This document shows, one piece after another, positions 12,072-22,149 of a stretch of 64,000 bases of DNA (the first letter of the stretch is position 1; every line of letters starts with the position of its first letter). Both the position numbers and the translations under genes were made by a program. This stretch comes from an uncultured Spartobacteria bacterium (lineage in GTDB: Bacteria; Verrucomicrobiota; Verrucomicrobiia; Chthoniobacterales; Chthoniobacteraceae), in NCBI GenBank assembly GCA_903933715.1, contig CAIZLD010000010.1, forward strand, positions 1-64,000, in the 5' to 3' direction. The notes below the pieces were generated by a model that worked only from the letters and a program-made list of their open reading frames with translations, was not told the DNA's origin and made no database searches.

Positions 12072-13562
12072 ATGAAAAACTGGACCGTACAAAAACTCGT
12101 CATGATCGGCTTCCTGGTCGTGATTGCCCTTTCGGCCGCGCTTTGCACGTTTTGCGTCCTCCGATTTGATGCAATTCAGAAGATGACCGACGCCTTGCAC
12201 GATAATCAAATGCCGGGAACGTATCTCTCCGGGCAGATCGTTCAGCATCTCCGAGAGAGCGATTCGGCATTGCTCCAGTACATCCTGACCGAAAACGCCG
12301 ACACCAAAAACAGCATCATTGCCTCCCTTAGGGAGATTTCGAGGCAAAATGAAGGTTTCGTACAGGAACGGGAAAAATTAGTCGATTCCGACCAGGAGAA
12401 AAAAATGTTCGAGGCGGTCAAATCGAGCCGCAGCCAATATTTGGCCTCGCGTGAGGAAATCATCAATTTGATCCAAGCAGGGAAAAGCAAAGAGGCTTTT
12501 GTCGCCTACGAGAGCAAGGGAATCGCGGCCTTGAAGAAATTCGCCGATGCCAGCGACGAACTGGAGAACAATGACAAGGAACACGCTTATAAAAGCTTGA
12601 ATGAAATTGACGATCTCGTCAACAGCACCAACCACTTCGTTTTGGGTGCCAGCCTGATTACTCTGATTGTCTCCCTGGGCGTGGCATTCAAGGTGCTCCA
12701 GATGCTCGGGACCACGCTGAAAAGCCTCATGATGTCGCTGATCCAGGTCAACGGCAGCGCCACCGAGATGGCGGCCACGATCAAGGAACAGCAGGCGAGC
12801 GCCAATGAGGTCGCCTCGACTTCGGTCGAGATCGGCGCGACGGCCAAGGAGATTTCCGCCACCACCCAGGAACTCGGAAAAACGATGAGCGACGTGGCCC
12901 GGGTTTCCGAGCAAACCGCCGAACTGGCCGAGGGCGGACAGAACGGGTTGACCCGGCTGGAAGGGACGATGCGCCAGATCATGGGGGCGACCGCGAGCAT
13001 CTCGGCCAAGCTGGCGATCCTGAACGAAAAAACAGCGAACATCAATTCGATGGTCACGACGATCAACAAAGTCGCCGACCAGACGAACCTCCTCTCGCTC
13101 AACGCGGCCATCGAAGCCGAAAAAGCGGGCGAATATGGGCAGGGATTCGCGGTCGTGGCGACGGAAATCCGCCGTCTCGCCGATCAAACCGCCGTGGCTA
13201 CTTACGATATCGAGCAGATGGTCAAGGAAATGCAGTCGGCCGTCTCCGCAGGGGTGATGGGGATGGATAAATTCGCAGAGGAAGTCCGCCGTGGGAACGA
13301 GGAGGTTTGCGGGGTGACAACGCAGCTTGGCCAGATCATCGGTCAGGTGCAGGCGTTGACGCCGCGCTTTGAATCGGTCAACGAAGGGATGCAAATGCAG
13401 TCCACCGCAGCGGGACAGATCAGCGACGCGCTCACGCAACTTGGCGACACCGCCCAGCAATCCGCCCAGGCGTTGCGGCAAAACAGCGAAGCGATCGAAC
13501 AGCTAACCAAGGCGGCGCATGGGTTGCAGGTCGCCGCTGCTCAATTGAAGTCAGAAAAGTAA
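12072..13562 (+). CDS. Methyl-accepting chemotaxis protein (WspA-like)
   Basis: N-terminal TM and periplasmic region, then signalling hairpin core [52 protein letters not shown]. First gene of the Wsp-type operon. Confidence 0.93.
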
Positions 13563-13590
13563 TTTTAAATAGAGAGGCCCGGTTGCCGCG

Positions 13591-14055
13591 ATGGTTTATT
13601 TACTCATCCAGATCGGTGCGGATCGTTACGCGCTTGAAGCCGCCGCGCTGGTCACGGTGCTGCCGCGGGTGCGCCTGAAGCGGATTCCTCAAGCGGCACA
13701 AGGAGTGGCCGGGGTTTTTAATTTTCATGGAGAGCCGGTTCCGGTTGTGGATTTGAGCGCCATGGCTTTGGGAGCCCCCTCCGAAGAGAGCCTCAGCACC
13801 CGGCTTGTGCTGGTCGGTTACCAGCGGCCCGGCGGCCCGGAGCGGCTGCTGGGTTTGCTTGCGGAAAAGGCCATTGATACCGCCCGTTACAACCCGGTGG
13901 ATTTTCAGGACTCCGGTGTCACCGCTCCGCAGGCTCCTTATCTGGGGCCGGTGATTCACGACGCGCACGGGATCGTGCAACTTCTGGAACTGGAGCGGCT
14001 CCTGACGCCGGAAGTTCGCGAGGCTTTGTGGCAGCAGGCCCGGGAAATGATATGA
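13591..14055 (+). CDS. CheW-like scaffold protein (WspB-like)
   Basis: YLLIQIGADRYALEAAALVTVLPRVRLKRIPQAAQGVAGVFNFHGEPVPVVDLSAMALG. Confidence 0.85.
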   Translation: MVYLLIQIGADRYALEAAALVTVLPRVRLKRIPQAAQGVAGVFNFHGEPVPVVDLSAMALGAPSEESLSTRLVLVGYQRPGGPERLLGLLAEKAIDTARYNPVDFQDSGVTAPQAPYLGPVIHDAHGIVQLLELERLLTPEVREALWQQAREMI

Positions 14056-19338: not shown

Positions 19339-19340
19339 TT

Positions 19341-20057
19341 ATGCGCCCTGAAAAAAAACATGAACTGCCGGATTCGTTTTTCTCTCTGGTCCTGCTGATC
19401 GACGACCAGGCGTTTGTGGGCGACACCATGGCGCGGGCGTTGGCAGGCCAGCCTGATATCGACCTGCATTTTTGCCCCAATCCCCTGAATGCCATCGAAA
19501 CGGCCAATGCGCTCAACCCGACGGTGATTCTCCTGGATCTCGTGATGCCGCAGCTTGATGGATTGGCGTTGCTCAGGGAATTCCGGAAAAACCCGGCGAC
19601 GGCCCAAGTCCCGATTGTGGTGCTCTCGGCCGAGGAGGAAGCGCAAACCAAGAGCGACGCCTTTGCCCAGGGGGCGAACGATTACCTGGTCAAAATCCCG
19701 GATATGGTGGAGCTGCGCGCCCGCATCCGTTACCACTCCTGGGCGCATCTCAACCGGCTCAAGCGCGAGGAGGCCTACCATGCGTTGCAGGAAAGCCAGC
19801 AAGCCCTGGCCCGCAAAAACACAGAGCTTTGCTTTATGAACGAAGAGTTCAAAAAAGCGCTCGCCGAGGTGAAGGAACTGCGGGGCTTGCTGCCGATTTG
19901 CTCCTGCTGTAAAAAGATCCGGGACGATCAAAATTACTGGCGTCAAATCGACAGCTACGTTTCAGAGCATACCGACGTGACCTTCACCCACAGCCTCTGC
20001 CCCGAATGTTATTCAAACGCGGTGAAAGAATGGAATGAGCAAAACACCCGAAACTGA
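19341..20057 (+). CDS. Response regulator: WspR-type REC, coiled coil and C-terminal Cys4 module, no GGDEF
   Basis: REC with [17 protein letters not shown]...[17 protein letters not shown]...[12 protein letters not shown]-terminus [42 protein letters not shown]. Start trimmed to ATG 19341. Confidence 0.85.
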
Positions 20058-22149
20058 TCGTTGGAGCCCGGAGGAAAATTCCTCCGCACTGGTTTTACTT
20101 GTGGACGACCAGGCTCTGGTCGCCGCCGCGCTGCAACGCGCCGTGGCTCACGAGAACGATGTAGATCTGCACTATTGCAGCGACCCGCGTGACGCCATCG
20201 CCATGGCCAACCGATTGAAGCCGAGGGTGATCTTCCTTGATCTGGTCATGCCCCAGATCGACGGGTTGACCCTGCTCAAACAGTTCCGGGCCAATCCCCC
20301 GACCGAGCATACCCCGATCATCGTCCTCTCCACCCGGGAGGAGGCGGAAACCAAGAGCGAACTTTTCGCCGCGGGAGCCAACGACTACATGGTCAAGCTG
20401 CCCGACCGGCTCGAACTGCTGGCCCGCATCCGCTACCATTCCACGGCCCATCTGCACCGTTTGCAGAGAGACGCCGCCTTTGAAGCTTTGCGCCAAAGCC
20501 AGCATGCGTTGGTGGTCAGCAACAACGCGCTGCTCGCGGCCAATGAGCAATTGGCCAAGGCGACCCAGGCGAAAAGCGAGTTTTTGGCCAGCATGACGCA
20601 TGAGTTGCGGACCCCGATGAACGGGGTGATCGGGATTGCCGATCTTCTGCTGGAGACCCCGCTGGACCCCCAGCAAACCGATTACGTGCAAGCCGCCCGG
20701 CACAGCGCGGAGGCGTTGATCACGCTGGTCAACGACATTCTTGATTTTTCCAAAATCGAGGCCCGGAAGCTGACGCTCGAATGCATCGACTTCGATCTGC
20801 GGGAATTGCTGGAAAGCCTTTTGAGACTCATGGGCGTCAACGCGAGGGCCAAGGATTTGTACCTCGCGGGGATCATCCCGCCTCACCTCGACACCCGCCT
20901 GAAAGGAGACCCCAACCGGTTGCGGCAGGTGCTGACAAATTTGTTGAGCAATGCCATCAAGTTTACCTCCGAAGGCTATGTGTCGGTGGGAGTGGCTCAT
21001 TTGAGCGCCACCACCACCCATACCACCCTGTGTTTTGAAGTGCAGGATACCGGGATCGGCATTGTGGCGGAAAACCAAAAAAGGCTTTTCCAACCGTTCA
21101 GTCAGGCGGAAGAATCGACGGCCCGCAAATATGGCGGCACGGGACTCGGGCTGGCCATCTGCCGGCAACTGGTGGAGTTGATGGGAGGGCAGATCGGGAT
21201 GGAAAGCACCCCCGGCAAGGGCTCGGTGTTTCGTTTCACCCTTTCCCTCGAAAAACAGTTTCCCGCCTCCTCGACCGAGAGGACGGCTCCCACCCTGCCC
21301 GGTTTTCGCACTTTGGTGGTGGAAACTCGGCCAGGTCTGCGCTCTTTGATTGAGAAACAGATGCGGGCGCTTGGGTTGCGTTCCAGCGGAGCAGCTCATG
21401 CGCTCGAAACGCTTCAACTCTTACGTGATCCGGGCAATGCGGATATCAAGATGGTGGTCATGAATCTCCCCCCCGAGGAGGCGGTTTCGCTGGCACGGGC
21501 CATCCAAGTCGATCCCACCGTTCCGGCGGTAAAACTCGTCCTGCTTCTCCCCGAGGGACAACCGGCCATCGGCCTTCCCTTTGACGCCTGTTGGAATATC
21601 CCGTTGCCCTATTGCGGAGCCCGGGATTGTATCGCGTCCTGGTTTGGAGAAGAATTGAACCGGGAGAGTCGCCTGTTTCCTGTTCCCGCTAAAGAAGATA
21701 TCGAGCGGCAGACACCCATCGCCAGCCCGGCAATTTTTGAGGACGAGACGATCTCGCTTGCGGGTTGGAAAATTTTGCTGGCCGAGGATAACCTGGTCAA
21801 TCGCACGGTGGCATTGGGCTTTATGAAACGCTTTGACGGAAAAATCGATGTCGCCGTCAATGGGTTGGCCGCTTATGAGGAAGCGTGCAAGACCGCCTAC
21901 GATTTGGTTTTGATGGATTGCGAGATGCCGGAAATGGACGGCTATGAAGCGGTGCGGCGGATTCGGATGTTGGAGAAAGCCGAAAATCGCCAGCCATCGT
22001 ACATCCTGGCCATGACCGCCCATTCCAGGCTGGAAGCCGAAAAAAAATGTCTCGACGCCGGCATGGACGGATTCCTGAGCAAGCCGCTCAAACGCAAGGA
22101 ACTCCAGGACGCGATCGCCCGGGGAATTCGCCAGCGGGGGTTAAAATGA
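20035..22149 (+). CDS. Hybrid histidine kinase: REC-HisKA-HATPase-(degenerate REC)-REC
   Basis: REC ([17 protein letters not shown]...[11 protein letters not shown]), H-box [20 protein letters not shown] boxes ([31 protein letters not shown]), C-terminal REC ([19 protein letters not shown]...[17 protein letters not shown]). Confidence 0.9.

Follow-up and report, generated by a model that had tools for sequence, protein, structure and literature searches.

A Wsp-type chemosensory operon of an uncultured Spartobacteria bacterium ends in two WspR-type receivers with outputs other than GGDEF

Introduction

The Wsp chemosensory operon usually ends with an enzyme that makes cyclic diguanosine monophosphate (c-di-GMP), WspR. 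A second kind of output, WspH, has been described in Burkholderia; it is a receiver (REC) joined to a histidine kinase, and wsp mutants there leave c-di-GMP unchanged (Kessler et al. 2021, PMC8552884). In the same paper, Wsp is said to be exclusive to beta- and gammaproteobacteria, WspH to be limited to Burkholderia, and each genome to have one output. Clusters with a CheR-TPR fusion, termed alternative cellular function (ACF) clusters, have been listed with multidomain response regulators that carry histidine kinase, GGDEF or phosphatase outputs (Garcia-Fontana et al. 2012, PMC3447774), so that output diversity in CheR-TPR clusters is already known.

Here we describe an operon at positions 12072-22149 of a 64,000-nucleotide stretch (the window; positions 1 to 64,000, forward strand, of contig CAIZLD010000010.1, assembly GCA_903933715.1) from an uncultured Spartobacteria bacterium. 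An initial annotation, made from the DNA letters alone, had read this region as a Wsp operon in which WspR was replaced by two proteins with WspR-style receivers. One of them, P0009, ends in a module with four cysteines (Cys4), and the other, P0008, is a hybrid kinase. Our comparison with other genomes leads us to consider it likely that this Wsp-type operon acts by a route other than c-di-GMP, with two sister receivers that would drive a phosphorelay kinase and a Cys4 adaptor.

Results

The eight genes of the operon are collinear on the + strand, with wspABCDEF complete and the two REC genes after it (Table 1). Coordinates and Pfam matches bear out the order given in the initial annotation (methyl-accepting chemotaxis protein (MCP), CheW, CheR-TPR, CheW, CheA-REC and CheB), and the start/stop overlaps that it had seen at several junctions are 4-bp overlaps at B/C, C/D and D/E. 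The gap between wspF and the P0009 gene is 2 bp, and the P0009 and P0008 genes overlap by 23 bp. WspA to WspF are 38-54% identical to the proteins of Pseudomonas aeruginosa PA7, our reference; the published criterion is an identity of at least 30% to reference Wsp proteins, there those of Pf0-1 and HI2424 (PMC8552884), and all six proteins exceed it. The synteny of wspA to wspF is conserved, the six genes sharing one strand with short gaps or overlaps between them. Bit scores and trees place WspE with its proteobacterial counterparts and separate it from the CheAs of other ACF systems. WspE keeps the Hpt His, the HATPase boxes and the REC Asp, the active-site motifs of WspF are present, and the Cys-rich N-terminus of WspD (CWNRIG..GDKSC..H..C.NC) is common to PA7 WspD, as seen on reading both sequences. 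Scans of the operon for promoters and terminators gave no more matches than shuffled sequence. By its gene order and domains, 12072-22149 is a genuine Wsp-type chemosensory operon.

The response regulators at its end carry WspR-type receivers, as PDB matches and trees both indicate. P0009 matched the WspR structures 3bre and 3i5a with E values of 7e-50 and 1e-49, the next protein being PleD at 1.8e-13, and the alignment with WspR extends through the stalk helix. In a tree of 90 receivers, the RECs of P0008 and P0009 belonged to the clade formed by terminal Wsp receivers, which lies apart from WspE, WspF and ordinary REC-Cys4 receivers; the tree against WspR RECs that the initial annotation had proposed therefore placed both domains where it expected them, with WspR. 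In a more careful REC tree the two are sisters (support 96/90), in line with the close relation noted in the initial annotation. Because they are sisters, one tandem duplication is the simplest account of the pair, rather than two separate recruitments. A second tandem of WspR-type receivers after wspF was seen at L175:2165-4231. The first of these is a REC-PP2C protein; the second is a REC protein of 267 aa, the C-terminal part of which is unidentified.

P0009 consists of the WspR-type REC, a helical stalk of about 60 residues (122-181) and the C-terminal Cys4 module (187-223). The description of P0008 as a hybrid kinase held, with Pfam giving REC-HisKA-HATPase-REC, and we add a receiver-like region in its middle. 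There, the phospho-acceptor site reads VVMNLP, with Asn where relatives have Asp; therefore the region is probably a dead pseudo-receiver. P0008 is 45% identical over 710 aa to the REC-histidine kinase of the nearest Wsp locus.

We considered whether only one of the two response regulators remained functional after the duplication, with the other decaying. The Asp lost from the middle of P0008 would fit with decay, as would the long branches of the window RECs on the careful tree (0.64 and 0.40). However, all five phosphorylation residues are kept in both terminal RECs (D21, D22, D66, S96 and K118 in P0009), the HisKA and HATPase motifs of P0008 and all invariant residues of the Cys4 module in P0009 are intact, and neither reading frame is truncated, with the two genes closely packed. 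We therefore regard decay of either protein as improbable.

We searched the window genome, a draft assembly of 2.8 Mb (97.06% complete, 0.49% contamination), for GGDEF, EAL and PilZ domains and found no match, while control genomes gave matches in every search. Neither P0008 nor P0009 has a GGDEF domain, in our Pfam search as in the initial annotation, and a REC-GGDEF protein of the WspR kind, which that annotation had named as evidence that would overturn its reading, was found nowhere else in the genome either. Because GGDEF, EAL and PilZ are all missing from a genome of 97% completeness, a c-di-GMP output of the operon appears very unlikely.

The operon could still act through c-di-GMP if a diguanylate cyclase were encoded elsewhere. 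WspH was once thought to act through such an unlinked cyclase (PMC8552884), and 9 of the 28 Wsp genomes in our sample of the class encode GGDEF outside the operon. GGDEF occurs in 54 of 236 genomes of the class, a tally of sampled genomes of which some are incomplete, so that absence from a single genome is not proof. The empty searches of the window genome nevertheless speak against an unlinked cyclase, as do the sampled genomes of the same family, where GGDEF was found in none of seven, and the wsp mutations of B. cenocepacia, which left c-di-GMP unchanged (PMC8552884). Taken together, these data make a cyclase encoded elsewhere barely credible as the output.

The contig seems to belong to the genome to which it was assigned. 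Its tetranucleotides fit the rest of the genome, and the 10 best relatives of serA, which adjoins the operon, all come from the same order; both results disfavour contamination. Horizontal transfer of the operon is plausible, because the nearest relative of WspE (66% identity) comes from another order and the WspE proteins of the same order are only 46-47% identical to it. The composition of the contig is native, however, and the sampling is thin.

As the initial annotation had suggested, we surveyed wspA-F loci in the class and beyond and tabulated their terminal domains. WspE relatives were collected from 236 genomes of the class, and those of at least 414 bits (414-1028) were taken as Wsp-type; they came from 28 genomes, including the window genome, and made up 29 loci. 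The next CheAs, those of the other ACF systems of the class, reached at most 362 bits. With the window locus left out, the output domain on the terminal WspR-type receiver is a hybrid kinase at 15 of the 28 loci and a SpoIIE/PP2C phosphatase at 8 (Pfam SpoIIE 9e-38). At one locus, as read from its sequence, the output is a PAS-HisKA_3-like kinase with a NarL-type regulator after it, and at another the receiver is bare, with no output domain. At the remaining three, all from one family, the receiver is unlinked from the operon; the one that was read carries PP2C, and the two others have open frames of the corresponding length. Loci of this family (L044, L047, L050, L174) have wspA-F and no adjacent response regulator; in two genomes the receiver is some 10-30 kb distant, and in a third it stands on a different contig. 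GGDEF was found on the terminal receiver at none of the 28 other loci of the class. We therefore rejected the idea that the window operon is a unique oddity, non-GGDEF outputs being the rule in the class.

In a second survey we scanned GTDB genomes with the receiver alignment and obtained 80 loci in named genomes. Their outputs were GGDEF at 61, kinase at 14, PP2C at 3, a class III cyclase-like domain at 1 and Cys4 at 1. All 61 GGDEF loci belong to Proteobacteria, if the term is taken widely enough to cover one metagenome-assembled genome (MAG) assigned to Myxococcota. Full wsp operons were present in Alphaproteobacteria (Bosea, Mesorhizobium, Kaistia, Methylopila), with wspABCDEF-wspR complete at L072, L084, L090, L103 and L107. 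The cyclase-like case, read from sequence, is in a Riflebacteria MAG (L105:9971-11452), where a WspR-type receiver is fused to a class III nucleotidyl cyclase-like domain, which suggests that the output is a cyclic nucleotide; the contig showed none of the wsp core genes. Across loci, at least five kinds of output, GGDEF, hybrid kinase, PP2C, class III cyclase-like and Cys4, are found on the same conserved REC-stalk, and they appear to be interchangeable.

We then examined the Cys4 module. Its motif is LPxCxxC-x3-R-x-D-x3-W ... FxHxxCPxC, and every one of 38 sequences keeps L and P, the two CxxC pairs, and R, W, F and H, so that the module noted earlier at the end of one REC protein is real and has invariant residues besides its cysteines. 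The module matched nothing in Pfam, NCBIfam or PDB sequences, and a literature search by motif was likewise empty. It is present in 65 of 188 genomes of the class, carried by REC, GAF, PAS and membrane-helix proteins, and stands after a helical segment in those that were read (relatives at L061-L063, L158-L169 and L178-L207). In an AlphaFold2 model of P0009 (predicted local distance difference test score, pLDDT, 87 overall), REC and stalk were modelled well, residues 122-181 formed one continuous helix, and the Cys4 core scored 59-68. A model of the module, of middling confidence, showed the order knuckle, strand, helix, as in treble-clef zinc fingers, where two CxxC knuckles hold one Zn in a hairpin-helix fold. 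Fold searches gave weak matches only, to PHD (Foldseek E 0.78), the ClpX zinc-binding domain (VIA Z 2.4), ZAD and TraR-type zinc folds, none of which we claim as its identity. With low confidence, we propose that the module would bind zinc, probably in a treble-clef-like fold, and would most likely act as a protein-docking adaptor.

The Cys4 effector was aptly called uncharacterised in the initial annotation, and it recurs in one other wsp operon, L064, from an Acidobacteria gp6 MAG. There, REC-Cys4 is the one gene that comes after wspE and wspF before the reading frames change strand. This contig of 6.4 kb is possibly misbinned; two other Cys4 proteins of the same genome, however, share 66-69% identity with its Cys4. 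Searches of 387 phylum genomes and of 193 genomes from the acidobacterial class yielded no further wsp REC-Cys4 case; L158 and L159 gave full-length matches but have ordinary RECs. The WspE tree joins the window locus to one kinase-type locus (99/96) and L064 to a different one (95/92), and it rejects a single origin of the two wsp REC-Cys4 operons (approximately unbiased (AU) test, p 0.0017). The shorter REC tree does not reject a single Cys4 origin (AU p 0.283).

An alternative to an independent Cys4 output is that P0009 modulates the hybrid kinase, either by forming a heterodimer with P0008 or by competing for WspE phosphate as a sink or decoy; co-translated with the kinase, it would in this way set its gain. 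P0009 and P0008 are 58% identical over 159 residues that include the stalk, and their sister RECs, their overlapping genes and the unbroken stalk helix of the P0009 model would all suit such a partnership. However, REC-Cys4 is the sole terminal gene at L064, with no kinase partner in that operon, and the module is widespread and conserved at the end of further REC, GAF and PAS proteins, a sign that it has a role of its own. We therefore consider modulation of P0008 unlikely, though not to be dismissed, and prefer a separate Cys4 output.

The initial annotation was right about the Wsp core, the two WspR-type RECs and the non-GGDEF outputs, but went too far on the direction of change. Its wording, that WspR was "replaced" and the output "moved from c-di-GMP synthesis", presumes that WspR is ancestral. 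This is not borne out by the class, where no other locus has GGDEF, nor by the WspE trees, where kinase-type systems surround the GGDEF systems of alpha-, beta- and gammaproteobacteria. Another two GGDEF loci take separate positions on these trees; a single GGDEF clade is rejected (AU p 0.0003), and without the two stray loci it is not (p 0.136). The nested clades are well supported, but the outgroup branch (71) and the root are weak. Because of the weak root, we limit our claim to this: judged from the trees, Wsp outputs have been swapped several times, and WspR need not be the ancestral output.

By homology, we propose that WspA would control WspE autophosphorylation, with WspB and WspD as couplers and WspC and WspF for adaptation, and that WspE would phosphorylate both sister receivers. 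The receiver and long helical stalk of P0008 would switch its histidine kinase, from which phosphate would pass, by way of the C-terminal receiver of the same protein, along a phosphorelay to an unlinked Hpt protein or regulator. In P0009, receiver and stalk may, more doubtfully, switch the small Cys4 module to dock a partner protein. The phospho-acceptor residues of all partners (WspE, WspF, the terminal RECs and the kinase) are intact. Several points weigh against this scheme: about 3% of the window genome could be missing from the draft assembly, the downstream partner of the P0008 kinase is absent from the operon, P0008 has a degenerate receiver in its middle, and the Cys4 model has a middling pLDDT of 74 with weak fold matches.

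Outside the operon, ARAGORN called a 97-base tRNA-Gln at 5373-5469 of the window, while Rfam finds only a tRNA-Val at 3531-3602; the tRNA-Gln call may be false.

Table 1. Genes and module of the Wsp-type operon (window coordinates; identity is to the P. aeruginosa PA7 protein).
Feature	Position	Strand	Length (aa)	Product	Domain matches	Identity
wspA	12072-13562	+	496	MCP with four-helix-bundle sensor and MCP signalling domain	Pfam 4HB_MCP_1 8e-23, MCPsignal 2e-32	41%
wspB	13591-14055	+	154	CheW-like coupling protein	Pfam CheW 2e-18	47%
wspC	14052-15353	+	433	CheR methyltransferase-TPR fusion	Pfam CheR 8e-45, TPR	42%
wspD	15350-16033	+	227	Second CheW-like protein	Pfam CheW 1e-18	38%
wspE	16030-18276	+	748	CheA-REC hybrid kinase	Pfam Hpt, HATPase_c, CheW, Response_reg	52%
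wspF	18349-19338	+	329	REC-CheB methylesterase	NCBIfam NF009206, 433.7 bits (cut-off 342)	54%
P0009	19341-20057	+	238	REC-Cys4 response regulator	Response_reg 9e-21; no further Pfam match	
Cys4 module of P0009	19899-20009	+				
P0008	20035-22149	+	704	REC-HisKA-HATPase-(pseudo-REC)-REC hybrid kinase	Response_reg x2, HisKA 9e-21, HATPase_c 2e-32	

Discussion

The novelty of the window operon lies in part of its output. A kinase output has a precedent in Burkholderia WspH (PMC8552884), whereas the Cys4 output and the survey of the Wsp core are new within the literature that we searched. The published claims on the distribution of Wsp (PMC8552884) are contradicted by the loci in Verrucomicrobiota, Acidobacteriota, Elusimicrobiota and Alphaproteobacteria, and the claim of one output per genome by the window operon, in which two outputs stand together. 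The Cys4 module is widespread with no Pfam or NCBIfam model and deserves a family of its own. Its function becomes testable in the window, because the kinase of the receiver that carries it is known by homology. What is sensed by the Wsp core when c-di-GMP plays no part, and whether the GGDEF output is ancestral, become testable as well.

A wider proposition, which in our judgement could go either way, is that the Wsp core is an output-agnostic cassette used across several phyla, for which c-di-GMP would be one output, possibly derived and repeatedly acquired. The window operon would then be a c-di-GMP-free case with a phosphorelay, in which a zinc-finger-like Cys4 effector of a new class, plugged onto a WspR receiver at least twice in independent events, forms the second branch.

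P0009 resembles the stand-alone REC-Cys4 regulators of Verrucomicrobia and Acidobacteria, of which the window genome has three more copies, in its order of REC, coiled-coil helix and Cys4 end module. Unlike P0009, those regulators have ordinary RECs that are not of the WspR type, and those that were read lie outside wsp operons. In the available part of the ACF survey (PMC3447774), the Wsp core is not singled out and no Cys-rich output is listed. The window operon shares with the WspR system of Pseudomonas and other Proteobacteria the wspABCDEF order and a terminal WspR-type REC with its stalk, but it is without GGDEF and has two terminal response regulators instead of one. As in the WspH system of Burkholderia cenocepacia, the output of which is independent of c-di-GMP (PMC8552884), as we propose here, P0008 joins a WspR-type REC to a histidine kinase and lacks a cyclase domain. 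However, Burkholderia wspH encodes 377 aa with no C-terminal REC and lies 5' of the operon (an arrangement seen in L208), whereas P0008 is a BarA/ArcB-like hybrid encoded 3' of the operon, where it shares the terminal position with REC-Cys4 and is not the sole output. The two are 32% identical over the REC and part of the kinase, with a weak match of 39 bits for the histidine kinase query. P0008 resembles WspH in the kind of output but differs from it in gene position and type of kinase.

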